This document shows, one piece after another, positions 4,231 to 63,723 of a stretch of 64,000 bases of DNA. Numbering within the stretch: the first letter of the stretch is position 1; each line of letters opens with the position of its first letter. Under the pieces are notes generated by a model. It saw only the letters and a program-made list of their open reading frames with translations, did not search any database and was not told where the DNA came from. The position numbers and the translations under genes are program-made. Source of the DNA: Deltaproteobacteria bacterium (GTDB taxonomy: Bacteria; UBA10199; GCA-002796325; JACPFF01). The stretch lies in contig JACPFF010000019.1 in assembly GCA_016183065.1 (NCBI GenBank), positions 105,351 to 169,350 of the forward strand, given 5' to 3'.

Positions 4231-4246
4231 TGGCACGCAATATGCA
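4231..4246 (+). promoter_or_regulatory. sigma-54 (-24/-12) promoter of the giant protein
   Basis: TGGCACGCAATATGCA matches TGGCACGN4TTGCA at all but one fixed base, with GG and GC exactly 12 apart. The C of the -12 element is 4245, so transcription should start near 4257, four bases before ATG 4261. This decides the start codon of the next gene. An upstream ATTTCA (4185-4190) is a candidate activator site. Confidence 0.72.
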
Positions 4247-4260
4247 GTTATACGCCGTTT

Positions 4261-7200
4261 ATGGGTGGCCCTCCGACAAAAGTGGGTGGCGCGACTTCTC
4301 ACTTATCTTCAGCAAAGGCGACGCCGGTTGGGCGTACCACGGCCTCGAGCCCTGTCGTTTCCGCGTCCAAGGTATCATTAAATGCCCGTCATGATCCACA
4401 CGACACCAGCTGCCATGCCTCGGAGGCGCCGCTCTGTCGGGAAGCACGGCGGCGGGCACAACGGCCTCGCTCAATGACACAATGGCAGGCGTCGGCCACT
4501 CAGGTTTCATCGAAGGGGCCACCGCAGATACCCGTCTCTGGCACTCCTGAAGTCTGGGATCGTCCTATTGCGATCGCGGAATTGGACCGCTGCATCGCCA
4601 TGTTCGATCAAGGGGAATGTTCCCCGCTCGATCCCGACGGGGAGGTCCTCGTCACGTTGCGAGCTATGCAACATCAACTGACGATCGAAACAGATCCCGA
4701 CGAAATTGCCCGACTGATTGAGCGTACTGCCGTGGTGAAAGAGGGCCTTGAACAGTGGCATACGCTCGAGGCGCAGTTGGAAGCGTCGTTGCAAGATAGC
4801 GCGCGCGTGCAATCGATACGTCGTGCCTATGCCCAACAATTGCGCTCGGGCGACGTGCCTCAACTACGGGAGGTATTGCGTCGTGGAACACGTCTGCTCG
4901 CCGATCTTCACCTGATGACTCGTGCAGAGGCTGCGCACAAGCTCTTGGTCGCGGCCAGTAATGACATGGTGCAGTCCGATACCGTGCCGCTCCAGGTCGA
5001 ATATTCGCCTGAGAGTGGTCTCATCATGGGGGAGAGCTATCTGGGCGACAACGCCACGTTGTCACCAGCACGGCTCAACCGGAATGCATTGACGCGGACC
5101 TATCGGATGTTGGCGAACAGCGATGATCCAGCACATCGGGCACTGGCGACGTCGTTGCGTGCCGCAGTCGGATATTTTCGTAGTCGAGAGGCCATCGGAT
5201 TATTGGACGCCCAATCGGCAGAGCGCCGAACTCTTCGCGCAGCGCTTCAGCGACATCTGCGGACGATTGAGCAGGCGCTCCCGTATATTGAGCAGAAAGA
5301 GGTGGCAGAGGCCCCTGCCGACGTGGTGCCGTCCGCCACCGCAAAAGATTCCCTGGCCATGCAGCACGCCCTGCTGCGCGATCGCGCGCAGCAACTCTAC
5401 GCCGCACTGAATACGCTCAAAAAGGAATTGGCTGTGCAAGGGGCCGGATGGAACCTTGGTCAGGGAGATGCCAACATCAGTCTCGCGTTAGTCGATCAGC
5501 TCATTTCCGAGACCCGCGGGTTGTTACAGGGTGTGCATTGCCAAGGGATATGGGTGCCAGGCCTTGAGAGCCGCACCGTAAGTCCCGATGTATTAATCCA
5601 GCATGCCTCACGCTTTGCGCACTTAGTGGAATCGCGGGGATATGCCACGGCCCGGCATCGTCTAGAGGAACTCGGCTACTATATGGGCATCCGCGACATG
5701 ATCTACGAAGGGACGATTTTGGCCCCGTTGGGGCTTGTGGGTGCTGCTGTGGCGCGGGCTCGGGCCCTTACGTGGGTGGCCAAAATGGGGCTTGAAGGGA
5801 CACGGGCCGGTGGTGCCATAGTATTGCTCGCAGAGTCCTCAGGCCTCACCATTGGATCGCTTGTCGGTGAACAGGCCTTTGTCCTCGGTGAGCCACTCCC
5901 CGCTGGGCTGTGGGAGACAACAGAATATCTGGCCAAGCGGGTCCTCCTCGGCATGGGCATGCTCAAGACCTTTCATACGGTGATGGGGGCGCTGGGGCCT
6001 CGTATCCAACAGGTGGCCATGCGGACCGCCATTGCCACGCTGCGGCGCCGCGGCATCTCCTTGCAACACCTCTTGACAAACGAAGGCCAAGCCTTGCTGG
6101 CCCGGGAGTTGCAAACCAGTTTCCGCATTGCCTTGCAAAATGTGGGGATCCGTATGGCAGGGAGTTATGCAGGATTCACGGGGTGGGATTTTGTGGCGGT
6201 CAATATTGAACAGGGACTTGATGGACAATTTGCCCCGGACGCGGCGGCGGCACAGGTCTGCAGTGTGAAGGCGCTGGTGCATCGGGCGGTCATGGTTCCT
6301 GCCTTTGAACTGTATGGGGGCATCACACAGATGCGCCAGGCACGACAGCTGACCACGGCGTGGAACCAATATCTTGCCGAGCACACAGACGTTGCGAGTG
6401 AATATCGGCGCGTACAAACGGATGTGACAGATGCGGCGGAGGCGTTTGGTGCGCTGCTGCGCGACACCAAAGGCGGCATGGACGCGGACCCGGCGCACGT
6501 GAAGGCATGCAAAGATCGGATGCGTCAGACCTTGCGTCAAGCGTTGACCTTTTACGAGTCCTTGCCGGAGACATTTCGTGGGGAGGCAACCACAATTCGC
6601 GAGCGGTTGCACCGCGCGGAGTACGTGGAAGGCGAGATTGCCAAGATCGTGACAGTCATCGGTCCGCACAATGTACACGGCGTGATCGAATATGCCGCAG
6701 GCCGTTTCACCTACGATGTCACACGCGAGGCCCAACTGATCACAGCGCTCGAACAGAGCGGCGCCCGTGTGACGCAGGGGCGCGACGGGATACTTATCGT
6801 GAATGACGCGATCTATTTAGCCCCCAATGTGGTGCACGAAGGACCTATTGTCCGCGCACGGCGCGAAATGGAAGCCATTCAACGCGTACTCCCAGTGGCG
6901 ATCGCCACGCCATTCAGTCGTGGAGTGCCGGCAGACTCTGCGGGCGGACGCCAAGCGCACACGCCAGGTACGGGTCGCCGCACGCGATCCTCGGTGAGTG
7001 GCGTGAAGCAACCGACCGCTCGCATTGTACGTCGTGACGAGGTCGCATCGCCGGGAATAACGGAGTCTACGCGCCGTGAACCAGCGGAGGCCGGCGGTGG
7101 AGGTCATGGCGCCGATGCGCTCCAGCATCTGCATGCGAGGCTGTGGGATTGGGCGCGTCTGCATGGCGACGAGGCGGATTACCGTACCGAGTTCGTCCAA

Positions 7201-8910
7201 TTGCGGCGAGAGATTGAGCACTTGCAGCAAGACGGGGTGGGTGACCCACAGCATATCCGGAGTCGATTGGATATTTTATCCGATGAATTGGGTTGCGAGC
7301 CACCGGTTACTTCACCCCCCGCAGCGGAGGCCGCACAGCCTGTCGAACCAGCACGCGCAGATCCTCGGGATCCACGCACGGCCGAACCGCGATCCATTGT
7401 CGATGCGATTGAAGCGGCCGAGGCGGGGCTCTGCGAGCTCATCGGGGGGACCTTGTTCATTGTGGTGGAGGCCGGCAAGGTGATCACCGTGGCGGACCTC
7501 CTCCAGACGGTCCCGTTACAGGGGCTTCGGCGTATCGAAATTGAATTGCCCGAGGGGGAGGCCATTACAGCCGACACGACGTTGCGGATGCAATCGTTCC
7601 AGGATGCCGGCATTGATGTCGTGGTACGGGGTGGAGAGGCCGTACCGCCTTCAGTCGCTGTGGCCACAGCATCCGTAGCGGATCATGATGCACAGAACGT
7701 GACGGCTGCTGTGCCAGTGCCGACTGTCGAGCCCAAGGGACAAGGGCATGTGCCTTCGCATGGTGAAGATCCGGCCTCGGCACCGGACCGTCAGGTTGCG
7801 GTGACCATCCCGCAGCCGACTGCAGCAGCGGCTGAGAAGCGGGCACGGGCCATTTTTCGCGATCAGCCAAAGATCCTCCAAGTGATAGTGTGGCGCAGTA
7901 ATGGTCGGAAGAGTCTCTTTACACGGGACGCCCCGCGATCCGGTGTGGCGGAGACCGGCGAGGCTTCCAAGCCGGCCGCCGTGCAGTTACAGTCCACCGT
8001 CACAGCGGCTCTACGTCCATCACGCAACGCCTCTGTCTGGCCGGAGAAAATTCGTTCGGCAATGTGCAATGCGTTGGGTTCTCTGTCGGGACGCGAATGG
8101 AATCCGCAACAACTGGAACAGTCGGAACGCAGTGAAGATGCGCGTTTGGTCCGCAATTCGCTCATCGCCGAAGGCGATCTCCTTGCGCTGGCCGGGCGGC
8201 GCACTGCCGATGGCCGCCGCACGGTGGAAGGCCGCAATACCCTCAAGCTGCTCGCTCTCTTTGCGACCTCGAAGACGCCGGCCACGGCGTGGATGTGGGT
8301 GCGGGCCTTGGCGAACATGGCGCGGCGGACGGGGCAAGCCCATGTCTTTGATGCGATCGTCTCTGAGACCCTGGAGCTCTATCGTCGTGCCCGAGCCAAT
8401 GGTGTAGCGCTGCGCGGCAGCGTGGTGGAATCGGTGGCAAAGACGCATGAGACCGTGGTGCGGGATTTGAAATATCCCCCACACAAAGTCAGCGAGATGC
8501 GACAAAGCGCGCAAGGCGAATTGGCCGTGGTACGGGGACTCCTTGCACATAGTAACCATGTTGCCGTGGTCGATGTATTGCCACGGTCGGGGACGGGACA
8601 TAATACGACTCCTGATTTGCGGATCGTCTTTCGTGGAGCGTCCCCGTGGACAGAGCTTTGGGATGTCAAAACGTCAAGAGTTGGTCATCACCGGATTGAT
8701 TATGGCCAATTTGCGAGTGGGCTTTACGCCAACATCGATGGCTCTCGCGTGATACTGTTGGGCGGGGGATTGTCCACAGAAGTGATTGGCGAGATACGTC
8801 AGCCGCGTCGCGGGTTTCGTATTCATCATTTCCCAGATCTTGCACCGTCGCCAGCGGACTTTCGGCGCATTGCTACCCCGACACCAGCGCGGGAGGGAGG
8901 ATCCCGATAG
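4261..8910 (+). CDS. 1549-aa protein with C-terminal PD-(D/E)xK-like motif
   Basis: The frame extends back to a GTG at 4162, but the sigma-54 promoter puts the mRNA start at about 4257, so ATG 4261 is the start; there is no Shine-Dalgarno. No signal peptide is visible. The first ~100 residues are Ser/Thr/Ala-rich. A long helical region follows (~110-450), then a Gly/Ala-rich hydrophobic stretch (~480-580), more helices, a low-complexity linker (~920-1000 and again ~1060-1090) and a globular C-terminus. Near the end, TTPDLRI (Asp1452) and ELWDVKTS (Asp1468, Lys1470) fit a PD-(D/E)xK nuclease core, as in some contact-dependent inhibition and polymorphic toxins. Function is unproven. No same-strand immunity gene follows; the next gene is convergent and overlaps by 38 bp. 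Confidence 0.75.
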   Translation: MGGPPTKVGGATSHLSSAKATPVGRTTASSPVVSASKVSLNARHDPHDTSCHASEAPLCREARRRAQRPRSMTQWQASATQVSSKGPPQIPVSGTPEVWDRPIAIAELDRCIAMFDQGECSPLDPDGEVLVTLRAMQHQLTIETDPDEIARLIERTAVVKEGLEQWHTLEAQLEASLQDSARVQSIRRAYAQQLRSGDVPQLREVLRRGTRLLADLHLMTRAEAAHKLLVAASNDMVQSDTVPLQVEYSPESGLIMGESYLGDNATLSPARLNRNALTRTYRMLANSDDPAHRALATSLRAAVGYFRSREAIGLLDAQSAERRTLRAALQRHLRTIEQALPYIEQKEVAEAPADVVPSATAKDSLAMQHALLRDRAQQLYAALNTLKKELAVQGAGWNLGQGDANISLALVDQLISETRGLLQGVHCQGIWVPGLESRTVSPDVLIQHASRFAHLVESRGYATARHRLEELGYYMGIRDMIYEGTILAPLGLVGAAVARARALTWVAKMGLEGTRAGGAIVLLAESSGLTIGSLVGEQAFVLGEPLPAGLWETTEYLAKRVLLGMGMLKTFHTVMGALGPRIQQVAMRTAIATLRRRGISLQHLLTNEGQALLARELQTSFRIALQNVGIRMAGSYAGFTGWDFVAVNIEQGLDGQFAPDAAAAQVCSVKALVHRAVMVPAFELYGGITQMRQARQLTTAWNQYLAEHTDVASEYRRVQTDVTDAAEAFGALLRDTKGGMDADPAHVKACKDRMRQTLRQALTFYESLPETFRGEATTIRERLHRAEYVEGEIAKIVTVIGPHNVHGVIEYAAGRFTYDVTREAQLITALEQSGARVTQGRDGILIVNDAIYLAPNVVHEGPIVRARREMEAIQRVLPVAIATPFSRGVPADSAGGRQAHTPGTGRRTRSSVSGVKQPTARIVRRDEVASPGITESTRREPAEAGGGGHGADALQHLHARLWDWARLHGDEADYRTEFVQLRREIEHLQQDGVGDPQHIRSRLDILSDELGCEPPVTSPPAAEAAQPVEPARADPRDPRTAEPRSIVDAIEAAEAGLCELIGGTLFIVVEAGKVITVADLLQTVPLQGLRRIEIELPEGEAITADTTLRMQSFQDAGIDVVVRGGEAVPPSVAVATASVADHDAQNVTAAVPVPTVEPKGQGHVPSHGEDPASAPDRQVAVTIPQPTAAAAEKRARAIFRDQPKILQVIVWRSNGRKSLFTRDAPRSGVAETGEASKPAAVQLQSTVTAALRPSRNASVWPEKIRSAMCNALGSLSGREWNPQQLEQSERSEDARLVRNSLIAEGDLLALAGRRTADGRRTVEGRNTLKLLALFATSKTPATAWMWVRALANMARRTGQAHVFDAIVSETLELYRRARANGVALRGSVVESVAKTHETVVRDLKYPPHKVSEMRQSAQGELAVVRGLLAHSNHVAVVDVLPRSGTGHNTTPDLRIVFRGASPWTELWDVKTSRVGHHRIDYGQFASGLYANIDGSRVILLGGGLSTEVIGEIRQPRRGFRIHHFPDLAPSPADFRRIATPTPAREGGSR

Positions 8911-9538
8911 CCCCCGCGAGCGCGAGCTGATAGGCCGGGAATGCCGCGCCACCGCTGAACATGCGTACACGATAGAGCGGTTGGCCTTCGAGAAATGGGA
9001 AGAGTCTTGCCATCTCTAACGAATCACCAAAAATGTGTTCATAGGTCTGACTTAGTGTGTAGGCGGTAGTAGTGACTGTCGCTGGTTCCACCAACTCACT
9101 TCGTTCCTCAGTAAAAAATGTTGCAAAGGATGTGGTGAGTGGTGAGGGGAGCACCCCGAGATCGTCGAGGAAGGCCAAATATTGCTTTGCTGAGGCATCT
9201 GCGGGGAGATCATAGAGGGCGTAGGGTAGGGGGGTCGAACGGGCAGCAAGGGTCGCCATGAGTGTATCGTGTATCGCCGATGTCCATGGTCCGCGGAGTT
9301 TGTGCACTTCGGTTTGCACCCGCCGGACAACGCCGTCGAGAACCTGCTCTCGCGTCATCGTGACGCCATGGATCACAGTTCGGGCCGTGCGCTCTGCAGC
9401 AAGTGCATGCTGTTCCGAGGAGGGTTTCACCGAAGGCATCCGTTGCGTGGGCAACGGGCGCTGTCGCGGTGATGTCCAGACGGAGCGCAAACGTGATGTT
9501 GTGTGATGCGATCCACTCCCTGGCCGTCTTGCGCGCAT
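8873..9538 (-). CDS. hypothetical protein, 221 aa
   Basis: The start ATG at 9538 is preceded by AGGAGA at good spacing, so it is preferred. The first ~45 residues are Arg/Ser/Pro-rich and disordered; the rest is helical and ends in a hydrophobic C-terminus (residues ~195-220, Ala/Leu/Ile-rich). No family recognised. The 3' end overlaps the last codons of the giant gene on the opposite strand by 38 bp, a convergent arrangement. It is divergent from the 68-aa/537-aa/370-aa set to its right. It could be an inhibitor of the giant protein, but only position suggests this. Confidence 0.6.
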   Translation of the reverse strand: MRARRPGSGSHHTTSRLRSVWTSPRQRPLPTQRMPSVKPSSEQHALAAERTARTVIHGVTMTREQVLDGVVRRVQTEVHKLRGPWTSAIHDTLMATLAARSTPLPYALYDLPADASAKQYLAFLDDLGVLPSPLTTSFATFFTEERSELVEPATVTTTAYTLSQTYEHIFGDSLEMARLFPFLEGQPLYRVRMFSGGAAFPAYQLALAGAIGILPPALVSG

Positions 9539-9617
9539 GATCTCTCCTGTTGTTCTCTCATCGGCACCCAGCGGTAAACGTTGCGTCCACTCATTGCCCT
9601 GTCGGTGACAACATGTA

Positions 9618-9824
9618 GTGGATCATGAACTGATTCGTAAAGCGTTCGTCTCGCCCACTCTTCGTATTCTGCGAGAACACGGAAATCAGGAGGCCCGCGT
9701 TTATCGGAGTAGCGGTGCCCGGAACCTTACGTTAACACGTGGTCGTCATGGCACGATCGATATCACATCTCGTTCGAGCGCTATCCGTGTGTTGCTGCAG
9801 GGCATCCGTCGTAAGGTGATGTGA
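9618..9824 (+). CDS. small hypothetical protein, 68 aa
   Basis: A basic, strand-rich short protein of unknown function. Its stop codon overlaps a GTG (GTGA at 9821-9824) that is in frame with the next gene, suggesting translational coupling. Coding character is otherwise weak, and there is no strong ribosome-binding site. The interval 9539-9617 holds the divergent promoters; I saw no clear -35/-10 pair there. Confidence 0.4.
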   Translation: MDHELIRKAFVSPTLRILREHGNQEARVYRSSGARNLTLTRGRHGTIDITSRSSAIRVLLQGIRRKVM

Positions 9825-9826
9825 CT

Positions 9827-11440
9827 ATGGCGACTGCATCGACAGCGTTGGCAAAACTTCCTGCAACGGCCGCACCGTATGGGAAGCGACCCTTAACGCC
9901 GCTCTATCCCGGTGCGCCGGCCGCACCGGTGTATCCGGTGGCCTATGGCCACAAGGCAAAAGGATGGATGGCACTGCACATCGGGACGGCCGGGCTCTCA
10001 CGGGTGATCCTGCAGCGGGCGGCCAGGCGATTTGGTCTCGCCTTTCAAGAGGTTGCTCAGGCCATCATGACCGACGAGACCCGGTTACGGTCCCTCTACG
10101 GGCGGTGGCAGATCTGTCAGCGCCGGAATACTGAGATTTTCCACGCACGCGAGACGGTCGTGTGGAACGACCGTCGTGAGAGAGAGTGTGCGGGCCTTCT
10201 TGTGCGCCTCGAAGAGCTCGAAGACGTGTTCATGCAACTCTGGGACCGCTGTCAACAGGCACGCCTCGTTGCGGGCGCTGCCCACCTGGCAAATCTCGCC
10301 CCATGCGCCAGAGCGCGGGAGATGTTGGCCCTTGGGGCTTTTCTGATGACTCGCACCACCTCCGCGGCCTGTACCATTGCGTGGCTTGAAGAAGCCGTGG
10401 GTGATTGTGAGCGGACCCTCGAAGAGCTCGAGTCCTTCCTCCGGTGTCAAACCGCACCACTCGAGGCGTTGGTGCCGTGGAAAGAGTATCAGACATTGGC
10501 ACTCCGCTGTCATACCCTCCGCGTGACCCCGACGTTGTTGGGGACGTGCCTCGACCCGACCGATCCAGCACTCGGCGCGCTGCAACGGGCCGACCCCGAG
10601 GCGCTCTTGGAGCGCTGCACCGTGGCACGCCGTCATCTGGAGCACTGCGACGCCCTGTTGGAGCGTATCGCCCAGGCCCAGGTCCTGTGCGACCGGTCTG
10701 CGTCGCGGTTGCTGGCCTATACAGGACATCCGGGCTTCACCCCCCTGCAGGATGACGTGGCGCAGGCGATCGCCGGATTTCAATCGCTGCTCGACCAGGG
10801 AAGAGGGGATCGGCAGCAGATGGAGGTTGTCCTACACCAGCTGACGGCCAGACTCACGCTCTTTCACAACGCCTGCGATGCCCACACGGCACTGCAACGG
10901 CGATGGTATGACCTGGTGCACCTGCGGATACCACCCCTCTCCCCGCGCTGGACCGAGGTCGAAAAGGATGTCGGCGCATTGTTGCCAACCTACAGTCCAG
11001 ATTGTCCGCAGATCCAGGCGCTCAAGCAGGCCATGAACACCGCGCGCACGGCCTATGAACAGCTGCAGGCCGCAGCCCAGCATGCCGAGCAGCAGCTCGC
11101 CCAGCGCGGTTGGACCCTCGCTGCCCAACATCTCGACGACGCCGATCGTCTCTTCCGCATCTGGAGTGACACCATGCCGCGGACGCTGGCCAACCATTTG
11201 CGATCTATGCGGGGCAATGTCGTAAGGGCCATGGATCGGTATTCTGCTCATCTGAAGTATCCAGGATCGTTTGGAATGCACAACGGCCTTATCAGGTTGT
11301 CAGTATTTGTTGGCAAACGGACCTTTTATGCGCGGGCAGATCAGATGGCGCTCTACGCGCGGGAGGGTCGCTATGACCTTGCCACGAAATTGGCGGATTG
11401 GGTTGATGAGATGATGGTGACAACATGGGTTTCAGATTAG
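9827..11440 (+). CDS. long helical protein of unknown function, 537 aa
   Basis: The start is ATG 9827, or GTG 9821 two codons earlier; AAGG about ten bases upstream favours the ATG. The first ~50 residues are Pro/Ala-rich (PLTPLYPGAPAAPVYPVAYG) and probably disordered. The rest is almost entirely helical, with repeated Leu/Glu/Arg heptad-like segments and many Cys and His (e.g. CARAREML, CERTLEELESFL), resembling a spectrin- or coiled-coil-like rod. No catalytic motif seen. It is followed by the 370-aa membrane-anchored helical protein, so both may belong to one assembly. Confidence 0.65.
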   Translation: MATASTALAKLPATAAPYGKRPLTPLYPGAPAAPVYPVAYGHKAKGWMALHIGTAGLSRVILQRAARRFGLAFQEVAQAIMTDETRLRSLYGRWQICQRRNTEIFHARETVVWNDRRERECAGLLVRLEELEDVFMQLWDRCQQARLVAGAAHLANLAPCARAREMLALGAFLMTRTTSAACTIAWLEEAVGDCERTLEELESFLRCQTAPLEALVPWKEYQTLALRCHTLRVTPTLLGTCLDPTDPALGALQRADPEALLERCTVARRHLEHCDALLERIAQAQVLCDRSASRLLAYTGHPGFTPLQDDVAQAIAGFQSLLDQGRGDRQQMEVVLHQLTARLTLFHNACDAHTALQRRWYDLVHLRIPPLSPRWTEVEKDVGALLPTYSPDCPQIQALKQAMNTARTAYEQLQAAAQHAEQQLAQRGWTLAAQHLDDADRLFRIWSDTMPRTLANHLRSMRGNVVRAMDRYSAHLKYPGSFGMHNGLIRLSVFVGKRTFYARADQMALYAREGRYDLATKLADWVDEMMVTTWVSD

Positions 11441-11478
11441 AGAGAGGCCGACGCCGATGCAGGGGTGAGGAGGGTGCA

Positions 11479-19681: not shown

Positions 19682-20800
19682 GTGATGATGAGGATGGGGA
19701 ATCTCGCACTCCAAGATGAAGTCGTGACACCAACGCCGGTGGCCATTGCGCAGGTGGGTGCACTCCTTGTCCCGTTTGTCGGCGTGTCGAAATGGACGAA
19801 GAGCACGTGGGAGAGACTCGGGATCCTCGCCATGGATGAGCAGCCACTCGCCTTTGTCGGAGAGAGCGGCAGCGGGAAGACGTATCTGGCGCGGCACGCC
19901 CATTGGCGCAGCCCCAGGGCCAGTGGCCCATTGCACATCATCAATCTCCGCGCCATGCCGGTCGAGATCATGGAAGCCGAGCTCTTTGGCTATTCGCGCA
20001 GCGGACTCCTTGGCGGGAGTGAGTCTCCGATCGGCGCTGTCGAGCGGGCCTCGGGCGGGAGTCTTATTGTGCAGGGGATCGAGCGACTCCCTGCCACCGG
20101 GCAGGAACGCCTCCTTGCGTGGCTCCTTGACAGTCGTGTATCGCCCGTTGGCAGCGAGGAGGTCCGGAACGTGAACACGCGGGCGGTGCTCGAGATGCGG
20201 GGACGGGAGTTGGTGCCACGGCGGGGGGCATCGCTCATTGCCCCACTCTATGCCCTCATTGAAAAACAGGTTATCGTGGTGGCGCCGTTACACGAACGTC
20301 GCGACGACATTCTCCCCCTGGTCGATTTCTTCCTCCAAACCTATGCCGATGCATGGGGTATGCCACTTCCCGAACTGACGGGCGAGGTCGCGCGCCTGTT
20401 GAAGCGTGCGCCGTGGGAGGAGAACGTCCGGACGCTCATGCGCGTCACCGCGCAGATGTTGCAGGAGGCAAAGGTCGGTCCGATCACCCCCCATCACCTT
20501 CCGCCAGCCTTGTTGGGCCGGTCGACCGAGGCCGCGGCCGTCGGGATTGAAGCCACGGCCCTCGAGGGGCTTGTCGAGGAAAAATTGCACCGTTTTTTTG
20601 ACCGGCTCAGCGGCTACGAGGTACAAGAGCTCCACGATGCGGTCATGTCCAAGGTCGAACGCCCGCTCATCCGTCTCGTGCTGGAACAGACACACGGGAA
20701 TCAGGTGCGCGCGGCGCGGATGCTCGGCCTCAATCGCAATACCTTGCGCACGCGCCTCCGGAAACTGGGGCTCGAGGGAAAACGGAGACGGAGTGCATGA
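19682..20800 (+). CDS. degenerate NtrC-family (Fis-type) regulator
   Basis: 372 aa. The AAA+ core is recognisable: Walker A GESGSGKT (~60-67), ELFGY and PLHERRDDI. The Fis-type helix-turn-helix at the C-terminus is intact (NQVRAARMLGLNRNTL). Key catalytic parts are changed: the GAFTGA loop that contacts sigma-54 reads GLLGGS, Walker B is LIVQGIE instead of LFLDEI, and the arginine-finger segment is SLIAPLY. By family knowledge it should neither hydrolyse ATP normally nor activate sigma-54, so it may be a repressor or accessory regulator. There is no receiver domain. Its stop overlaps thiE by four bases. The start may be any of three ATGs within 19682-19694. Confidence 0.82.
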   Translation: MMMRMGNLALQDEVVTPTPVAIAQVGALLVPFVGVSKWTKSTWERLGILAMDEQPLAFVGESGSGKTYLARHAHWRSPRASGPLHIINLRAMPVEIMEAELFGYSRSGLLGGSESPIGAVERASGGSLIVQGIERLPATGQERLLAWLLDSRVSPVGSEEVRNVNTRAVLEMRGRELVPRRGASLIAPLYALIEKQVIVVAPLHERRDDILPLVDFFLQTYADAWGMPLPELTGEVARLLKRAPWEENVRTLMRVTAQMLQEAKVGPITPHHLPPALLGRSTEAAAVGIEATALEGLVEEKLHRFFDRLSGYEVQELHDAVMSKVERPLIRLVLEQTHGNQVRAARMLGLNRNTLRTRLRKLGLEGKRRRSA

Positions 20801-22403: not shown

Positions 22404-22419
22404 TGGCATGAATATTGCT
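22404..22419 (+). promoter_or_regulatory. sigma-54 promoter of the transglutaminase-like gene
   Basis: TGGCATGAATATTGCT matches the -24/-12 consensus with exact spacing. The -12 C is 22418, so the mRNA should begin near 22430, three bases before ATG 22433. This excludes the in-frame TTG at 22415 as start and predicts a leaderless transcript. Confidence 0.75.
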
Positions 22420-22432
22420 TATTTTTTGGCCG

Positions 22433-24547
22433 ATGACCTCTCTTCTCTCAGGGATTGCCGGGAGTGGTGGCATTTCGCCCGGTCTGACCGGTGGACGACC
22501 CATTGAGCGGGCCTACCCCGGATGGTCGGCGTTGCAGGCCGGGAGTCGGGCGCTGGCCCACGGCGATGCCCTCTTAAGCGGGGCGCTCTTCTCAAGTTCT
22601 CTGCTTGGGATGGGGGCCATTCCCTTCTTTGCCCCATTAGGGGGGACGGTGTCATTCGGCGGGTATGCCTCAGGAATGGGCTTTTGGGGCCTTGGTAGCG
22701 GGTCGGTGGGTCCGTTTGCCAATGTGGGTGGATTTTGGCCCGGCATCATGGGTGGGGCCTTTTTTGCGCAGACCGGGCCGCTCGTCCCCATGCCGCAGCA
22801 GATCACCACGGCGGGGACGTTGGCGCGGCACGCGGCGCACGAGGCCAAAAAGAAGAAGGATTCTGCTGCTGCGGAAGCAACGCCCGGTGAGACCGCAGCG
22901 GCAGCGGCAAAAGAAGAGGCGAGGAAGGTGTGGGGGAGTGCCGCCGAGCAGGCCATGGCGCACGGCGGAGAGGGATTGGTCGCCACGCTCGATGCCGAGA
23001 AAAAGACGATCACGTTCAGCCTGCGGCCCCATGTACCAGTGCCGACACGCGCGGTCATGCAGCGGCACGTCCGCGCCGTGATCCGCGCGATGCGGCGGGA
23101 TTCGGCATTGGATGATGCGGTCATTGTGGTGGGAGGGCAACGGTTCGAGCACCCGACGAACCGTGACGTGCCTGCCATCACCGATGCGCTCCTCTCGACC
23201 GTTCCGCGATCAGCAGACGCGGGATTGGAGCGCGATGCCCCGCAGACGCCTTCGGCGCGGCGCAGTGATCGGCAACTGGCCGACCGCCTCTTGCGCGGGA
23301 CGGTGACCGATCTTCCGCATTTTCCCGTGTCATGGGATTTTGGCGCGGCCCGCCCGCTGGTGGAGGCCAAGATTGCACAGATTCGTGAGGCGCATGGGAT
23401 CGTGGCGGGCACACCAGTCCCTGTGGAGAAAGCGGAGGCCGTGGCGCGCGATCTCTTTGCCTTTGCCATGGCGCCGACCCCTGTGCGGTGGCCTGGAGAT
23501 GCGGCGGGTACGTCCGAGGCCCTGAGCGCCGGGAAGGGCCTGGGCCTGACATTCCCCGGCGTCCAGCCGACGAGCGAGGAGACGCGGCGCAGGCACCAAG
23601 AGAAGGGCGAGATTGCCGCTGTGATTGATCAACCGGCGGAGGCGGAAAAACAGGGTGAGTGCACGGAGCAGACCGCGGTGTTTTTGGCACTCTCACGGGC
23701 CGCGGGACTGGAACATCTCCATCCCATTCAGGTCACGCGCACAAAAACACGCGATGGTGGCACGGCGCCGATCATGCATGTGAGCGCCGTCTTGCGACGA
23801 CCCGGCCAGCACGATCTCCATTTTGATCTCGGCAACCATCGCATCACGACCGATGCCGACACACCGCATGCGGATTACACCCTTCTCTCGGTGGCGGAAT
23901 TTCTCGACCTGCAAGGCGGGAACAAGGCCGATCAGTTGATGCAGGCGGGACAGTTGGCCGAGGCGCGAGCGCTCTTGGAGGCCGTTGTGGAGCGGTCACC
24001 CATGCAACCGTTCCCGCGTTATATGCTGGGAGGACTGGAAGTGCGTGCCGCACGTGAGGCGTCAGTCGGTGAAGCGGCCGCCTGTTGGCGGCGAGGTCTT
24101 GCACATCTCGATTGGGCCATGGAATTGACCGGCACGGACACATTGGCCCGCGAGCCGATTTCTGCGGCGATGCTTACGTATTCGAACGAGGAATTGGCGC
24201 GCTCGCTCCCCGCACAGATTGTGTTGCGGGTCGTTCGCGTACACCGGGCCATGGCGCAGACGGCGCATGAGGCAGGCCAGAGCCAAGATGCGGTGTTCAG
24301 CAGCATGGCGGCAATGGCCGTGTTACAAAAGTGTGCCGCTGCACCAGATGCAACGGCCCTGATCCTTAATGAGATGGTGACGTATCTGCAACCCGGCATG
24401 AGAGACCAAACCACAGCAGCGTTGAACGCCCCAACCTTCGAAGAGCTGAAGCGAGACTATCTGGCCTGGCTCGATCAACGAATTGCGGAGTCATCGGTCA
24501 CGGAACGCGCCGCCTATCAGGAAGAGCGTACGCGTATAAGTAAGTAA
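22433..24547 (+). CDS. transglutaminase-like/TPR protein with Gly-rich N-terminus
   Basis: 704 aa from ATG 22433, set by the sigma-54 promoter; no Shine-Dalgarno. Residues 1-110 are strikingly Gly/Phe/Ser-rich and hydrophobic (FGGYASGMGFWGLGSGSVGP), possibly a membrane-interacting or export region; no standard signal peptide. Residues ~135-175 are Lys/Ala/Glu-rich. Around Cys410, GECTEQTAVFLALSRAAGL, then MHVSAVL (His449) and HFDLGNH (Asp465) give the Cys-His-Asp layout of the transglutaminase-like cysteine-peptidase fold. TPR-like helices follow (ADQLMQAGQLAEARALLEAV), an order also seen in SirB1-type proteins. Enzymatic activity is inference. The MITE-like element begins immediately after its stop. 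Confidence 0.72.
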   Translation: MTSLLSGIAGSGGISPGLTGGRPIERAYPGWSALQAGSRALAHGDALLSGALFSSSLLGMGAIPFFAPLGGTVSFGGYASGMGFWGLGSGSVGPFANVGGFWPGIMGGAFFAQTGPLVPMPQQITTAGTLARHAAHEAKKKKDSAAAEATPGETAAAAAKEEARKVWGSAAEQAMAHGGEGLVATLDAEKKTITFSLRPHVPVPTRAVMQRHVRAVIRAMRRDSALDDAVIVVGGQRFEHPTNRDVPAITDALLSTVPRSADAGLERDAPQTPSARRSDRQLADRLLRGTVTDLPHFPVSWDFGAARPLVEAKIAQIREAHGIVAGTPVPVEKAEAVARDLFAFAMAPTPVRWPGDAAGTSEALSAGKGLGLTFPGVQPTSEETRRRHQEKGEIAAVIDQPAEAEKQGECTEQTAVFLALSRAAGLEHLHPIQVTRTKTRDGGTAPIMHVSAVLRRPGQHDLHFDLGNHRITTDADTPHADYTLLSVAEFLDLQGGNKADQLMQAGQLAEARALLEAVVERSPMQPFPRYMLGGLEVRAAREASVGEAAACWRRGLAHLDWAMELTGTDTLAREPISAAMLTYSNEELARSLPAQIVLRVVRVHRAMAQTAHEAGQSQDAVFSSMAAMAVLQKCAAAPDATALILNEMVTYLQPGMRDQTTAALNAPTFEELKRDYLAWLDQRIAESSVTERAAYQEERTRISK

Positions 24548-33719: not shown

Positions 33720-33735
33720 AGCAAACCGCGTGCCA
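33720..33735 (-). promoter_or_regulatory. sigma-54 promoter of the 32803-33696 gene
   Basis: The minus strand reads TGGCACGCGGTTTGCT, a perfect -24/-12 match. Transcript start near 33709, leader ~13 nt including GGAGGA. Directly upstream is TTGTCGTATAAT, similar to TTGTCGCATAAC ahead of the 35052 promoter. ATTTCA lies at 33760-33765. Confidence 0.82.
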
Positions 33736-35051: not shown

Positions 35052-35067
35052 AGCAAGAGGAATGCCA
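35052..35067 (-). promoter_or_regulatory. sigma-54 promoter of the 34049-34984 gene
   Basis: The minus strand reads TGGCATTCCTCTTGCT, with correct -24/-12 spacing. Transcript start near 35041, giving a ~57-nt leader. TTGTCGCATAAC lies just upstream; TGAAAT on the plus strand at 35117-35122 is a candidate activator site. The remainder of 34985-35179 is AT-rich and carries no gene. Confidence 0.7.
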
Positions 35068-54448: not shown

Positions 54449-54451
54449 CAC

Positions 54452-57123: not shown

Positions 57124-57518
57124 GGGTCCACCGTAAAGGCGATATCCGCGTTGCTGGTGTTGTCATACACCGAGAGGAATGTTGTGGTCACGCCGGTTGC
57201 TGCCGTTGCGGGGATCGTGAAGGTCAGCTGTTCCAATTCGCCATCGACCGGTGGGATGACGAGACTGTACGAATCCGCAAGGGCCGTGGTCCCGGCACAG
57301 TGTACAATGTTCTCCTCCGGTACGAGCGAAAAACCAAATCCAAGAATGGTGATGGAGTCGCCCGCACGTCCATGTGTGGGATCAACCCGCGAAATCACGG
57401 GAGGGAGTTGCGTGGCGACTTGGGGATCAAAGACGAGTTCATCCACATTCCCGCAGGTGGCGCAGCAGAAGAGTGTCATGCACAACAGCACGCGCGACAT
57501 GGACATGGCGGTGGGCAT
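57120..57518 (-). CDS. IPT/TIG-domain lipoprotein
   Basis: 132 aa. A signal with Cys-rich end (LLCMTLFCCATCGN) suggests lipid attachment. Residues ~45-132 form one IPT/TIG immunoglobulin-like domain: PPVISRVDPTHGRAGDSITILGFGF is split here as PTHGRAGDSITILG plus FGFSL. ATG 57518 is chosen; two in-frame ATGs follow within 18 bp. Cotranscribed with amgK-murU; perhaps an envelope adhesin or binding module. Confidence 0.75.
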   Translation of the reverse strand: MPTAMSMSRVLLCMTLFCCATCGNVDELVFDPQVATQLPPVISRVDPTHGRAGDSITILGFGFSLVPEENIVHCAGTTALADSYSLVIPPVDGELEQLTFTIPATAATGVTTTFLSVYDNTSNADIAFTVDP

Positions 57519-57642
57519 ACTGAAGCGCTGCCACTCCTGCAAGTCTCTTCCTGGGACGGCTCCTCCCTTTGCCATCTCCTCGAGATCCGGAGAGCACTCG
57601 TCGGGTACGCGGTCGGCTTGCCCTTGAGGCTCGCCGCCGTCT

Positions 57643-58293
57643 TCAGGAGGAATATCGCGCGCCGAGCCGTCGCAGCTTTTGCCAGTGCGTCAGGCGGTAA
57701 AAGTCGCGGACCACCGGTGGAATGGCCGACAGGCGATGGCGGCGGAAAAATCGGGCATTGATGGTGCGACAATAGTGCCATGCCAGAAAGGCGGCGCGGT
57801 CGTACCGCTCCGCGGCCTCGGCATCCATCCCGCCACACAGGGTATAGTGGTGAAAGAGGTCTGCCAGAATCTCCGTCGTTCTCCCCTGGCGGTGGAGCCA
57901 TCGTGCGCAGAGGAGATACTTGTCGATTTCGGCCTGCAGCTCCAGTTCCAACTGTGTGAACGGCATGTCATGGGCCAATTTCCATGTCGCACAGAGGAGA
58001 TGGCTGACCCCCTCAATGGCTACACACGTGGCATCCAGGTTGGTCCGGTCGAGTTGCGTGATCGGAGGTTGTGCGATCAGCCGTTCAAGGATTGCGGGCG
58101 CAATATAGAGTCCCAGATAAGTGACATTGTCCTGCCGGGCAATCAAGAGGGTCTCTCGTCGGTGGGGGGCTCCATCCCCACCGCGGGGACAATGGGCCGC
58201 ATAGGCGGCGGGCGAGATCAGAAAATCGCGGATCTCCGTCCGTTCGAGGCAATACAGGTCCTGCAGGGCATTGGCGATCCCTTGCACGGTCAT
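57643..58293 (-). CDS. conserved-looking hypothetical protein, 216 aa
   Basis: All-helical in character, cytosolic, with Cys, His and Tyr-rich segments (LFHHYTLCGG, HYCRTINARFF). Not recognised. It overlaps the upstream 201-aa gene by four bases (ATGA), so the two act together. It leads the run into the IPT lipoprotein, amgK and murU; the 124-bp gap (57519-57642) has no further gene. Confidence 0.72.
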   Translation of the reverse strand: MTVQGIANALQDLYCLERTEIRDFLISPAAYAAHCPRGGDGAPHRRETLLIARQDNVTYLGLYIAPAILERLIAQPPITQLDRTNLDATCVAIEGVSHLLCATWKLAHDMPFTQLELELQAEIDKYLLCARWLHRQGRTTEILADLFHHYTLCGGMDAEAAERYDRAAFLAWHYCRTINARFFRRHRLSAIPPVVRDFYRLTHWQKLRRLGARYSS

Positions 58294-58895
58294 TGGGACG
58301 ATGGCTTTCGCTCGGACAACGGGATCCCTGCCTTCTGGAGGATGTGCGCCAGTCGCTCACACCCAGTGGCAAGCCACGTCTCGTAGTAGCGGAGGAGATC
58401 GCGATTGTTCTCCCCGCGTCCCGCGCGTTGCACTTCATCGATCAGGAGCACGCAGTCGGGGAATTTCCCCCCCAATTCGGTATAGACCTCGGCAAAGGCA
58501 TCGCGGACGTGAAAGAGGGTCGCCAGACTCTGGTAGGCTCCACTTCCCATCTGGATGAAGTAGTCCCGGTTGACCACCCGATTCGTCCGTTCGGGAAAAT
58601 ACCCGGCAACAAAGAGGGCACGATCCCCCAACTGTCGCAGGGAGCGAATCTTCGTCGGCAGGTGATCGCCGTGGACCGCCCGTTCGAGCAGTACCGCGAG
58701 CGGGACGTCTTCCAGGGTCTCACCGACCAGTTCAAAGAGCTGCTCGGTCCGTCGAAATTCGTCGAGGAGATTGACGAGGTAAAATTCTGCATGGTCGGCC
58801 AATTGGACTTGGAGTCGCTCCGCCGCGGTGTTCACCTCCGTACGAAAATATTCCCGCAGGCTCGCATGATCACTCACTAGCTGCCGCACGTTCAT
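58290..58895 (-). CDS. conserved-looking hypothetical protein, 201 aa
   Basis: Mixed helix/strand, cytosolic: ends of the protein are polar, with YLVNLLDEFRRTEQLF and FPDCVLLIDEVQRAGRGENN. Not recognised. First gene of the operon that runs through 57643, the IPT lipoprotein and amgK-murU; translationally coupled to the next gene. A sigma-70-like promoter lies just upstream. Confidence 0.72.
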   Translation of the reverse strand: MNVRQLVSDHASLREYFRTEVNTAAERLQVQLADHAEFYLVNLLDEFRRTEQLFELVGETLEDVPLAVLLERAVHGDHLPTKIRSLRQLGDRALFVAGYFPERTNRVVNRDYFIQMGSGAYQSLATLFHVRDAFAEVYTELGGKFPDCVLLIDEVQRAGRGENNRDLLRYYETWLATGCERLAHILQKAGIPLSERKPSSQ

Positions 58896-58908
58896 ATCTT
58901 GGATGTCA

Positions 58909-58936
58909 TTATACGGTTTCCCCAGAGGGAGAACAA
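58909..58936 (-). promoter_or_regulatory. sigma-70 promoter of the amgK-murU operon
   Basis: The minus strand has a perfect TATAAT (58914-58909) and TTGTTC (58936-58931) 16 bp upstream. Transcript start near 58902, a few bases before ATG 58895. Confidence 0.5.
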
Positions 58937-58973
58937 ACGCTAATTTCCGGCGGCTGGTGTGAAAAATCCGTAA

Positions 58974-59999
58974 CTAATTGAGAAATATCGTGTTTTTTGT
59001 TTTTTTCGTCGTCGACTGCACGTGACGGAGTGTCAGAAGACCGATCAGGAGTTTGAAGAGATAATTGGTAAACATCCAGAGGAGACTGACTGCCAGGATC
59101 AGTTCAGGGGCGGAGACCGGATGCGTTGCCGTGGGAAGAAGGGCAACATGGGGGGCCAAGAGGTCAATCAGGGCCTTGTTCGACGTCCCGATCCCTCCCC
59201 AACTGATGGGGATCACGCCGATCAGGATCGCAATGGGGACATTGCCGGCCGCGGCCAGAAAAGGGATCGTCCCATGGAAGGCGTGAATAATCACATAAAT
59301 GGAGATGACCAGGAGGAGATGAATGGGGGCACGCCAGAGCGCCAAACGGCAGTAATCGCCCAACCGGGCCACGTGAAAGATGCGAAAGAGACGCTTGCGC
59401 TGGAGCCAGGCAAATGCGTGCTGCCAGGATCGACCTTGCAGGCGATTTTCCCAATGCATCAGCCAAAAAAGGAGGTGGGCTGCAACGAGGCAGTAGGTGA
59501 TGATCCCGACGAGCCGAACGGTCGGCGTGATGTTCACGCCGAGAATAGCATGGTGCCCGATAAACGAGCCGAAAAACGCCAATGTCACCACCCACACAAG
59601 GTCCATGACGGTGATCAATGTGAAGAGCCCGATGACATCGCCCACAGGGATCTGCAGCCGTCGTCTGAGATAATAGGCAAAACTTAACTGGCCTGCGCCG
59701 TAATTGATCAGGCTCAAGGGGTAGGTGGCGGCCCGCAGGGGGAGGACGGTGCGGCCCGTGGCCGGATGCCCGAATCGTGTAAGGAGGGCGGAAACGCCAA
59801 AGGTATCGATGGCCAAAACCGCGGCAAAATAGAAGAGAGCAAAGGCAAAAAAATTGAATAAATTCGCTAATTTAAAGGCATTTGCGATCTGGTCGATCGG
59901 GTAGAGACGAAAGAGCCAGACCAAGATCCCCCCGGCGATGGCCCACGGCAACACCCGCAGCGCAAGCCCGCCGCATTTTTTTTCCAAAAAAAGACGCAA
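58974..59999 (-). CDS. lysylphosphatidylglycerol synthase/flippase-like membrane protein
   Basis: 341 aa from TTG 59999 (GGAG upstream), with about eight membrane helices. Helix patterns PLRAATYPLSLINYGAGQLS and GVIPISWGGIGTSNKAL match the UPF0104/LPG-synthase transmembrane family. Often linked to lipid modification or flipping. Single gene, separately transcribed. Confidence 0.8.
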   Translation of the reverse strand: MRLFLEKKCGGLALRVLPWAIAGGILVWLFRLYPIDQIANAFKLANLFNFFAFALFYFAAVLAIDTFGVSALLTRFGHPATGRTVLPLRAATYPLSLINYGAGQLSFAYYLRRRLQIPVGDVIGLFTLITVMDLVWVVTLAFFGSFIGHHAILGVNITPTVRLVGIITYCLVAAHLLFWLMHWENRLQGRSWQHAFAWLQRKRLFRIFHVARLGDYCRLALWRAPIHLLLVISIYVIIHAFHGTIPFLAAAGNVPIAILIGVIPISWGGIGTSNKALIDLLAPHVALLPTATHPVSAPELILAVSLLWMFTNYLFKLLIGLLTLRHVQSTTKKTKNTIFLN

Positions 60000-60029
60000 C
60001 TTTTTCTCCGTCGTGCCGATATTATCTAT

Positions 60030-60197
60030 GAGGAATGGGGCAGCAGATGCACATGATCATAATTGGGGAGACTTTGCAAAGCGGAAAACTTCGACCTTGG
60101 TGAGGGCGCGGGAGAAGGCAGTAGCCTTCACCTCTCCAATCCCCCACTCCTTCTCCCAACATGGCCGGCTGTCCGCAAGGACAGCCGGTTTTTTTTG
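60030..60197 (+). ncRNA. possible small RNA ending at an intrinsic terminator
   Basis: A plus-strand terminator at 60165-60196 is not preceded by any plus-strand gene. The ~130 bases before it contain the hairpin GAAGGC-AGTA-GCCTTC. No promoter is clear, so the 5' end is a guess. It lies in the 524-bp gap between the flippase gene and the toxin-antitoxin pair. Confidence 0.3.
60165..60196 (+). terminator. intrinsic terminator
   Basis: CCGGCTGTCC and GGACAGCCGG form a perfect 10-bp stem with a GCAA loop, followed by eight T. Strong Rho-independent terminator on the plus strand. Confidence 0.85.
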
Positions 60198-60238
60198 GCA
60201 GTATTGTGGTTTCCGCGACTTTCAAAATACGGCGTCTT

Positions 60239-60487
60239 CACTATTGGAGGGGCTCACGTACCCTGCGGCTCCGCCTCCGGGTACTTCCTCGTCCACCCGC
60301 TTCGCGGGTGCCCGGACTCGGTCGTCGCCACACCCCCCTCCAGCGGCAGAGCCGCTGGAGCCTCCCCTTCAACGCCGCGGTGCGGCTGGGGCGTGGGGCC
60401 CCGGGCGTCAGTCCGGGGGGTGTCGTTCTCAGGCGAAGCCTCCTCCCAAGGTGCCACGGGCGTGAGCCCGTGAGGCCCCACTATTGG
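60239..60487. repeat. GC-rich interspersed repeat (copy C), flanked by 9-bp direct repeats
   Basis: CACTATTGG flanks the element at 60239-60247 and 60479-60487, like a target-site duplication. Inside are the TCCTCGTCCACCC module seen at 26660, the CTCCAGCGGC/GCCGCTGGAG hairpin and the GC-rich part seen at 33869, and a CACGGGC/GCCCGTG hairpin. It is the most complete copy of the family. No open frame. Confidence 0.72.
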
Positions 60488-60488
60488 T

Positions 60489-60525
60489 TTGACACAGAAT
60501 TAAAATGATCCCATAATGATCCCAT
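60489..60525 (+). promoter_or_regulatory. sigma-70 promoter with tandem operator repeats, leaderless
   Basis: TTGACA (60489-60494), 17 bp, CATAAT (60512-60517), then six bases to ATG 60524: the transcript should start at the ATG. AATGATCCCAT occurs twice in tandem (60504-60514, 60515-60525) over the -10 box, one helical turn apart, a likely operator for the ribbon-helix-helix antitoxin. Confidence 0.75.
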
Positions 60526-60769
60526 GACAAATCTCAATATTCGCGGCATCCCCGATGATCTCTATGCCCTTCTCAAGTTCCAAGCCAAGCAGGAGGCACG
60601 CTCGCTCAATCAAGAAGTGCTCTGGCTGCTCCGGAAAAGTCTGGCGGAAATGCCTGTGGATCCACATCTCTGGGGACGGATCGACAACCGTCGCCACAAG
60701 TCGTCGCGTCAAAAGCGGCATTCGAACAGCGTGTCTCTCTTGCGGAAAGACCGTGGCCGGTTGTCATGA
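60524..60769 (+). CDS. ribbon-helix-helix antitoxin (VapB/FitA-like)
   Basis: 81 aa. LNIRGIPDDLYALLKFQAKQ and ARSLNQEVLWLL form a ribbon-helix-helix like FitA antitoxins. The C-terminal half is Arg/Lys-rich and probably wraps the toxin. Overlaps vapC by four bases. It should bind the tandem operator over its own promoter. Confidence 0.85.
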   Translation: MTNLNIRGIPDDLYALLKFQAKQEARSLNQEVLWLLRKSLAEMPVDPHLWGRIDNRRHKSSRQKRHSNSVSLLRKDRGRLS

Positions 60770-61185
60770 CGCCAGCGGTTCTCGACTGTAGTGTCCTGCT
60801 CAAATGGTTTTTTGAAGAATCGGGAACGGTATCTGCATTACACATTCGTGATCGTGTCATTGCACGAGAGATCGAAATGTGGGCCCCCGCGCTCGTGCTT
60901 GCTGAATTCACAAACATTGTGTGGCATAAAACCGAGCGGCTTGAGATCGACGAAACAACGGCCTGTGCCCATGTCGAAGATTTCCTGCAATTACCCTTGC
61001 TGTGCATGGCGCTCGAACAACTCGCACTCCCCGCCTTACGCCTCGCCCATACTTGGCACATTACCGTGTATGATGCGTGCTATATGGCACTGGCCGACCA
61101 CCTGAGTGCCCCACTCATTACCGCTGACCGTCGTCTTGCCAATGTCATCCGCAATGGACCGGTGGCGGTGGAGGTCATTGCCTAA
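60766..61185 (+). CDS. vapC: PIN-domain toxin (VapC family)
   Basis: 139 aa. PIN acidic residues: Asp7 (LDCSVLLKW), Glu47 (LAEFTN), Asp98 (YDACYMALA) and Asp117 (TADRRLA). VapC toxins are Mg-dependent RNases that cleave tRNA or rRNA. Preceded by the cognate antitoxin in an ATGA overlap. The following 61186-61310 has no gene. Confidence 0.9.
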   Translation: MTPAVLDCSVLLKWFFEESGTVSALHIRDRVIAREIEMWAPALVLAEFTNIVWHKTERLEIDETTACAHVEDFLQLPLLCMALEQLALPALRLAHTWHITVYDACYMALADHLSAPLITADRRLANVIRNGPVAVEVIA

Positions 61186-61310
61186 AACCGGTGCAGTCAC
61201 CTCCCACTATGGCCTGAGTGTCCTCGCAGATGCGGGGACTTCATTACCCATTTTCGTGAAGGGCATCGCCGCCAACCGTAGTATTTCATTGAAGATTTGG
61301 TGTGACTGAC

Positions 61311-61326
61311 TGGCATGGATGTTGCT
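61311..61326 (+). promoter_or_regulatory. sigma-54 promoter of the metalloprotease gene
   Basis: TGGCATGGATGTTGCT is a full consensus match. The -12 C is 61325, transcript start near 61337, three bases before ATG 61340. TTTCATTGAA (61284-61293) lies upstream. Confidence 0.78.
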
Positions 61327-61339
61327 GTCAATGAACATA

Positions 61340-63723
61340 ATGTCGAATAGAATAATCCTTTGCTCCATTCTTCTCACACTCACCGCAACGACTCGCGCCA
61401 CGGCGACACCAGATCCCTCCATCGTCCAGGCCGTACAAAACCGGCCGGAAATGGCTGGAGTCACGCTCCTTCCACGGGAAGAGCGGAGGATCAATATCTC
61501 GACGGATTTTTCCCGCTGGAACTCTGTCATGCGGACGAAGAATATTTCCTCTTTGCCACACCGCCGGCATCAACACCGTATCAAACCGGACTGGTGAAAA
61601 GTCATTTCGATCTTCCCGCCGGCCTTCCCATGTCCTGGCCGTCGAAGATCTTCCATTGGTGGGAGGGGCCGACCGTTAATTATGGTGAACCGAGCGAGGT
61701 GGTGGCATTGCAGGGAAGTGTCAACCGTGTGCATGCCTATTTGGGGATGGTTCTCGATATCTGGGATGCAGAATATGACCTGCCGTGGAAGCCGTTGGAA
61801 ACCGATGCGAGCGGGGAGGAGGGGGCATCTTTGTTGATGCGACAATATGTCGGTATGGAAGGGGAAGAATCCATTGGGGAAACGGCCTGGACCAACAGCA
61901 GAGACCTCATTGTCTACAACGTGACGATCCAGGAGTATGGAAAATATCTCAAAGACTATGGGACGCTCAGCGTGGTCGGCCATGAAGTGGGCCATATCAT
62001 CCACGAGATATATGCGGGTGACGTCCACGCGTGGGACATCCCTGAAACCTGCGTCGATGGGGAATCCGGCGAAGTCGCCAAGGCGTGCATCGAGTTCTAT
62101 ATTGCCCAGGGCACGAACGAGGCATGGGGAGACCTGCTCTCCAATATCGCTGCCAATGCGATCACCCCCCAGGTTCCCGCAGCGTTCGTGATGTTTGGGA
62201 AGAAACCGTGGGATTGGAATACCCCGCTGCCGCTCTCCGCAACACAAAAAACAGAGGCCTACGCGATGCTCCACGACACCGTGGAAGAAAAATTTCTGGT
62301 CGCTGCCGCGGGGAAATCGGAAGAAGTCTCGTTTGGTTGGAGCCACGATGCCGGCGCGCTCTTCAAGGAGTGGGTGGCGTTGTAGGTCTCTGGCACAGCG
62401 GACAATTTTTTAAATGGCGCGGGTGAACCATTCATACCGGGAACAGGGTATGCCACTTTTCGCGAGATCGTCATGTTCGCCTTGCAAGGGGGGTACCTCA
62501 CCAAGAGTGCAGCGCTCAAGGAACAGGTCGCCGATCTGATCATCGCGTGCCAAGATCTGGCGGATGCCACCTCCACGAAGAAATCACCGCCCATTGCCGC
62601 TGCCACCTGTGCAACCTTGATCAAGGCCGCACAATATTATGGCATTCCGCTATCCAAGGGGCTGGCAAGTGGCATCAGCCTGAATCCGATCGCCTCGAGA
62701 GTCTATGACCTGTCGGTCGATCAGATCCGTGCGGTCGGCACATGCTCACAGAAGAGCATTCACTGTCAGATAACGGGGTCAATCAATGACCATTACACCT
62801 ATGCCGTCGATGTGACCAATCATGGACCCGACGTGGTGACCGAACAGGTGGTCTTATCGCGCACCATGGTGGACACTAATCTCTCCGGGTCACCCAAGAT
62901 TTTCGAAGGGACGATCCCGCGGGGAAACATGCCGGAGGGCGTGGCACTGCTCTGCGAGGTGCCATCGCCCATCCTGGTCGGAGAAACGCGCTCGTGTTCA
63001 TTCGCATGGGCGCCGACGCCGGCAGCGTTACAGGGGAACCAGAAGATTGTCCTCTTCGGGTTGGTGAAAGAAGAAGTGCTGGGAGTCGATAAAGAGACCA
63101 TGCTGGAGAAATTCAACAATAGTGCAGGAGGAAATTGGTCGGCAGTCCTCCCGTATCCCGTGACGGAGCTGGAGGAAGGGAACAATAGCATCGTCATTTC
63201 GTTACAGCCCGATATCCGTCCATGGCAGTTCAGCGCGACGTGGACTCCGTCCATTGCTTTTGGACCAAAACAGGGTGCGACGTCCCCGGCGCAGTGGAAT
63301 TTTGAGGCCATTCCCTACAATGGGGGCGATGCCTTTGTCATGAAATCCGTGACCGTGCACGTGTTTGCCATGCCACAGATTGCCGATGCCCTTGCGCAAT
63401 ACGCGAAGAACGTGCAATCGGCGGAAAACAAAGTCAATGAGATGGCCGCCGGCACGCCGGGCCCCGGGGCTTTTTTTGGAGTGGATGACGTGAAAAACGT
63501 TGGCGCCAATATGGTGCCCGCCTGTACCGGCATTGCTCATACGGATGGGGCGATCAATGCGGGTGAACACTGGAAGGGAGCAACAATGGAGTGCCCGCTT
63601 CCGCAGACCGACCTCTTCCTCGTCATCTATGATTATCCCGATGTCATTGCTGAAACCGACGAGTGGAACAATCTTGCATTCTATAGTATTTCAACGTTTA
63701 ATGAGTACAAATGTGCTCGTTAA
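61340..63723 (+). pseudogene. interrupted secreted gluzincin (M4-like) metalloprotease
   Basis: The signal peptide (MSNRIILCSILLTLTATTRA) is in one frame up to about 61507; similarity continues in another frame. A single missing T in the T run 61507-61511 (5 T, 6 expected) would restore one frame. Downstream the frame holds HEVGH (61981-61995) and NEAWGD (Glu at 62119-62121), the metal ligands of M4-type proteases, with a ~22-residue insert containing two Cys between them. An in-frame TAG at 62383-62385 then interrupts the ~795-residue product, whose C-terminal part (to 63723) has strand-rich, CARDB-like features (VDVTNHGPDVV, IAETDEWNN). Either a decaying gene, sequence errors, or read-through. 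Sigma-54 promoter intact. Confidence 0.72.

Follow-up and report, generated by a model that had tools for sequence, protein, structure and literature searches.

In the deltaproteobacterial genome analysed here, sigma-54 promoters of the -24/-12 type stand directly before the start codons of a set of genes that have no Shine-Dalgarno sequence (SD). This pairing is real and conserved, and it is apparently undescribed so far. Very probably these elements are genuine sigma-54 promoters set against the coding sequence, with mRNAs that would be leaderless, and the sequence comparisons point to an arrangement conserved in the class to which the genome belongs and in Myxococcota.

The window (the whole stretch of DNA that was analysed, 64,000 nucleotides) contains the following elements and genes. 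Leader lengths here and below are counted from the canonical +1, which is the usual 12-nt step past the -12 C.

4231..4246, plus strand: -24/-12 element TGGCACGCAATATGCA, one mismatch (ATGC for TTGC), -12 C at 4245; canonical +1 at 4257, leader 4 nt, ATG at 4261
4261..8910, plus strand: open reading frame (ORF) of 1549 aa, no Pfam family
19682..20800, plus strand: enhancer-binding-protein-like gene (Sigma54_activat, AAA lid, Fis-type HTH), candidate activator
22404..22419, plus strand: -24/-12 element TGGCATGAATATTGCT, exact, -12 C at 22418; canonical +1 at 22430, leader 3 nt, ATG at 22433
22433..24547, plus strand: ORF of 704 aa, codon-position GC coding-like
33720..33735, minus strand: -24/-12 element, exact, with a 13-nt leader and SD (GGAGG), before an exported 297-aa protein
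35052..35067, minus strand: -24/-12 element, exact, with a 57-nt leader and SD, before an exported 311-aa protein
61311..61326, plus strand: -24/-12 element TGGCATGGATGTTGCT, exact, -12 C at 61325; canonical +1 at 61337, leader 3 nt, ATG at 61340
61340..61597, plus strand: frame of 85 aa with a signal peptide at its start; the protein apparently carries on in another frame
61360..62385, plus strand: remainder of the 61340 gene, with a zinc-metallopeptidase-like motif (HEVGHIIHE), no Pfam match

An initial annotation of this DNA had described the three plus-strand elements, and direct reading of the sequence finds all of them in place, with 16, 15 and 15 nt from the -12 C to the ATGs at 4261, 22433 and 61340, respectively, and no SD at any of the three. 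The spacing given there has to be corrected: TGGCAYN6TTGCW has 0 exact matches, and the true pattern is TGGCAY-N5-TTGCW, the standard sigma-54 spacing. The consensus is matched exactly at 22404 and 61311, and with one mismatch at 4231; the same ATGC variant of the -12 box is also found 2 nt 5' of yifB in one Kofleriaceae genome. With the N5 pattern the window has four exact sites, and 14 with at most one mismatch where 4.9 are expected, a count attained in 0 of 100 shuffles. The GG and GC elements in this spacing thus exceed chance. The other two exact sites, at 33735 and 35067 on the minus strand, were absent from the initial annotation, and the site at 33720..33735 represents an SD-led class within the same sigma-54 regulon.

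Judging from base composition, the ATG at 4261 is likely the start of the 1549-aa ORF: the extension upstream of it (4162-4260) is not coding-like, with a third-position GC of 0.33 vs 0.63 in the gene. The 704-aa protein matches no Pfam or NCBIfam family and, in an orthology test, has 0 relatives in 45 other genomes of the class, which makes it an orphan. The frame at 61340 stops after 85 aa and the remainder lies in another frame, so the gene looks frameshifted by assembly error or decay; the first ~50 residues of the frame 61360..62385 resemble non-coding sequence. Site by site, 22404 is well supported, though its protein is an orphan, 61311 is supported as a promoter ahead of a frameshifted gene, and 4231 is plausible. 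As a side observation, the C-terminal stretch of the 1549-aa protein (ELWDVKT) resembles by eye a nuclease core of the kind seen in polymorphic interbacterial toxins. The activator-like gene at 19682-20800 lies ~1.6 kb ahead of the 22404 site.

The genome assembly (1.97 Mb in 30 contigs, 89% complete) contains rpoN (PF04552, E 7.5e-66), so that one refutation named in the initial annotation, the lack of this gene, does not apply. The best named match of this RpoN is 63% identical and comes from a groundwater 'Deltaproteobacteria' metagenome-assembled genome (MAG; JACPFG01). The yifB hit in this MAG agrees in coordinates, score and E-value with the one in G001, a relative from the same family, and the class may be UBA10199 of GTDB. 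There are eight strong matches (>200 bits) to AAA+ enhancer-binding proteins in the genome, and the window holds another activator-like gene. Exact -24/-12 sites number 49 in the whole genome, vs 4 for a reversed-pattern control. The anti-Shine-Dalgarno sequence of the 16S rRNA is canonical, and the absence of an SD is therefore a choice made at the level of the gene.

The genome-wide search that had been proposed, run with N5, shows how often start codons pile up next to these promoters. At the 49 sites of the genome, 15 ATGs of frames of at least 80 aa lie at a leader of 2-6 nt, where the counts at other distances predict 2.6 (P 1e-7). In 46 class genomes, 485 ATGs are found at leaders of 2-7 nt vs 221 at the six positions just before +1, a comparison between counts that are non-independent, as they are drawn from related genomes, and with a control that also includes genuine sigma-54 sites and is thus an impure null. 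The excess has the same direction in 42 of 45 informative genomes. Among the 149 matches listed, which come from related genomes, leader length is bimodal: most leaders in a peak at 3 nt have no SD, and most of those in a second mode at 12-20 nt have one. Of the 25 ATGs listed for a Kofleriaceae genome, 11 lie at leaders of 2-4 nt (2.4 expected, P 8.5e-6); C precedes 10 of these 11, and at most of them a lipoprotein or signal peptide begins with that very ATG. The same method finds no excess in Geobacter and Desulfobacterota genomes (8 of 86 ATGs vs 8.3 expected). The recurrence of the sigma-54 and near-leaderless pairing that had been suggested from the window thus appears strongly supported by sequence genome-wide, class-wide and in the Myxococcota genomes tested.

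For the yifB (comM) gene the start is set by alignment, and 43 orthologues were examined. A -24/-12 site lies 2-6 nt before the start in 24 of them (13 at 2 nt, 9 at 3 nt, one at 4 nt and one at 6 nt), while the background rate of such sites elsewhere upstream is 2.4e-4 per position. These 24 comprise 21 of the 30 class members examined (11 families) and three Myxococcota-like genomes, which are all that were tested in this group: Anaeromyxobacter oryzae, a Kofleriaceae MAG and the 'Chersky' MAG, the last of which groups with the other two in the yifB tree. An SD is found in 0 of the 24 copies with an adjacent promoter vs 13 of the 19 others (Fisher P 7e-7). The start codon is AUG in 23 of the 24, and GTG in one (L190). 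In the protein tree of yifB, the adjacency label requires 6 changes vs 14.4 for shuffled labels. The promoter is absent from yifB of Geobacter and Desulfobacterales, where all seven copies examined have an SD-like stretch. A few further copies (L191, L204, L209, L221 and L224) have neither SD nor promoter, so the absence of an SD is not diagnostic by itself. Promoter and homology agree on the yifB start, which together with the composition upstream of 4261 supports the earlier proposal that the promoter settles start codons. In the genome analysed here, both yifB and radC have the leaderless sigma-54 arrangement.

The base before the start codon gives a hint of where transcription begins. C occupies position -1 of the ATG at 51 of 84 sites listed with leaders of 2-3 nt, vs 15 of 66 at 4-7 nt (P 3e-6), and in yifB it does so in 19 of the 24 copies with an adjacent promoter vs 6 of the 19 others. 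A pyrimidine-purine step is typical of transcription start sites. Together, these observations suggest that the A of the AUG is itself the transcription start; this +1 would lie 14-15 nt past the -12 C. At the three window sites the base preceding the ATG is T, G or A and never C, which counts against this explanation.

The mechanism we propose builds on what is established directly, namely promoter sequence, spacing, statistics, homology-anchored starts and the absence of SD, from which the actual 5' end, the activator and the mode of translation are deduced. RpoN polymerase would bind the -24/-12 element, and a bacterial enhancer-binding protein would open the promoter. Transcription would set in 12 to ~15 nt past the -12 C, either on the A of the AUG or 2-4 nt before it. 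Ribosomes would read the resulting mRNA, which has no SD, as a leaderless message beginning with the AUG at its 5' end, and initiation would probably be 70S or initiator-tRNA-dependent, as known elsewhere. A single genome would hold two kinds of sigma-54 genes, a leaderless kind (leader 2-6 nt, no SD) and an SD-led kind (leader of ~12 nt or more), and the leaderless kind is conserved across the class as well as in Myxococcota. A wider reading can be offered tentatively, and is possible rather than probable: that the class and Myxococcota have in common a conserved regulon whose activator-gated sigma-54 transcripts enter a translation route of their own, independent of an SD, so that one signal would switch both synthesis and the kind of initiation for envelope lipoproteins and for genes of DNA processing, yifB/comM among them.

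Several other explanations have to be weighed against a leaderless message. Sigma-54-like strings could fall near ATGs by chance in such a large search space, and single sites are indistinguishable from this; about five of the 14 window sites with at most one mismatch are expected anyway. For the site set as a whole, chance is refuted by the excess in the genome itself and in the class, by the low background at yifB, and by Geobacter and Desulfobacterota showing no excess by the same method, which leaves it a negligible probability; the site at 4231, taken singly, is excepted. It is also conceivable that the promoters are real and that translation begins further downstream, at a start codon served by a separate ribosome-binding site, which would give ordinary leaders. 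This is possible for single genes, as in locus L006 of the genome analysed here, where the ATG at a leader of 2-6 nt competes with a downstream ATG that has an SD (leader 63 nt), and in L017 and L018, which have second in-frame ATGs. As a general account it is very improbable, as homology places the yifB start of 24 orthologues, all SD-less, on the adjacent ATG, and lipoprotein and signal peptides open exactly at the adjacent ATG. Among the Myxococcota-like cases, lipoprotein or Sec-type hydrophobic N-termini do so in 13 of 17.

In other bacteria sigma-54 is known to bind within transcribed regions as well, and this precedent would allow for genes that are driven by promoters further upstream, with sigma-54 at the adjacent site acting as a block or switch and not marking the start of the message. 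Such a role would leave the SD-less leaders without a clear reason, and occlusion does not fit the spacing of 14-15 nt or the C/A step at the AUG, whereas initiation does, so that we consider it highly unlikely. Finally, leaderless initiation might be general in the lineage, as in Deinococcota, with the sigma-54 genes merely sharing in it. No recognisable SD is found at any candidate start in 104 of 172 ORFs of the genome (from a crude gene pick), which would agree with this. SD-less ATGs of the same sequence, in a small sample with crude gene calls, show no peak of TANNNT ahead of them, and sigma-70 leaderlessness of the Deinococcus type, with genes adjoining a -10 box, was rejected on that basis; general leaderlessness is unlikely. 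The leaderless sigma-54 message is the explanation we prefer.

Leaderless genes next to a promoter have been described in other bacteria. In Deinococcota they adjoin a -10 box, TANNNT (PMC12340547). As here, a promoter element stands at a fixed short spacing before the ATG, the mRNA is leaderless with no ribosome-binding site, and the promoter is used to correct starts; the element there is a -10 box, whereas here it is the activator-requiring -24/-12 element. In Campylobacter jejuni and Helicobacter pylori, leaderless mRNAs have sigma-70 -10 boxes ahead of them and are poorly conserved between species (PMC3847290). They share with the present genes the ATG starts lacking a ribosome-binding site, and that one gene can be leaderless or leadered depending on species, but differ in having a -10 box in place of the sigma-54 element. 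For sigma-54 in C. jejuni, mapped starts fall 8-13 nt past the motif (PMC3847290), a distance that at the present sites would extend to the AUG. Bradyrhizobium and Sinorhizobium have mapped starts on the AUG as well as mapped RpoN promoters (PMC4842269, PMC3616915), and thus combine in one organism the same two features, of which the AUG starts are predicted here. The leaderless motif of Bradyrhizobium is an extended -10 box, unlike the -24/-12 element here, and the study that reports it remarks that specific promoters have not been described for such genes (PMC4842269). Classical sigma-54 promoters have the same consensus and spacing, with activators present, and the SD-led half of the regulon matches them; their leaders hold an SD, which the leaderless half lacks. 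The open-access papers searched, including Myxococcus start-site maps and work on sigma-54 with ComM, yielded no report of the pairing, and the text of a 2025 survey of sigma-54 regulons does not mention start codons.

The leaderless genes of the literature surveyed are tied to sigma-70-type -10 boxes, from which a sigma-54 version is a departure. It would mean that a tightly activator-controlled promoter can do entirely without a leader, and that leaderless translation can come under one specific signal. Start codons in Myxococcota and in the class could be corrected from the promoter. Myxococcota are culturable, so the prediction is directly testable there.

It is worth looking at which proteins are encoded. 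The initial annotation had spoken of giant or exported proteins. The leaderless genes start from 91 aa and most are of ordinary size, the 1549-aa ORF being an exception, so the word giant finds no support. Among the sigma-54 genes of the genome, export, scored by a crude hydrophobicity test, is predicted for 8 of the 14 that are leaderless and 13 of the 18 that are SD-led (P 0.47), with a window background of 11 of 47. The export claim holds for the sigma-54 regulon as a whole, and a special link between leaderlessness and export is rejected: export is enriched in both kinds and tracks sigma-54, and being leaderless is a further trait independent of it. In the genome, lipoproteins, an L,D-transpeptidase and a PEGA-domain protein are among the leaderless genes; in the class, inspection by eye adds Ser/Thr kinases, transposase-like proteins and lipoproteins of a ComEC-like metallo-beta-lactamase kind. 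In several class members the transposase-like proteins (MAYLPRYEII...HVTWQCHN) repeatedly come with a leaderless sigma-54 promoter (L057, L163, L165, L166 and L272), and the lipoproteins resembling the ComEC metallo-beta-lactamase domain do so in two lineages (L056 and L168/L279). In the genome analysed here, radC lies close to yifB/comM (locus L026, G000 C15:293676-296100), each with a separate leaderless sigma-54 promoter. Both genes are linked to competence or recombination elsewhere, which hints at sigma-54 control of DNA processing.
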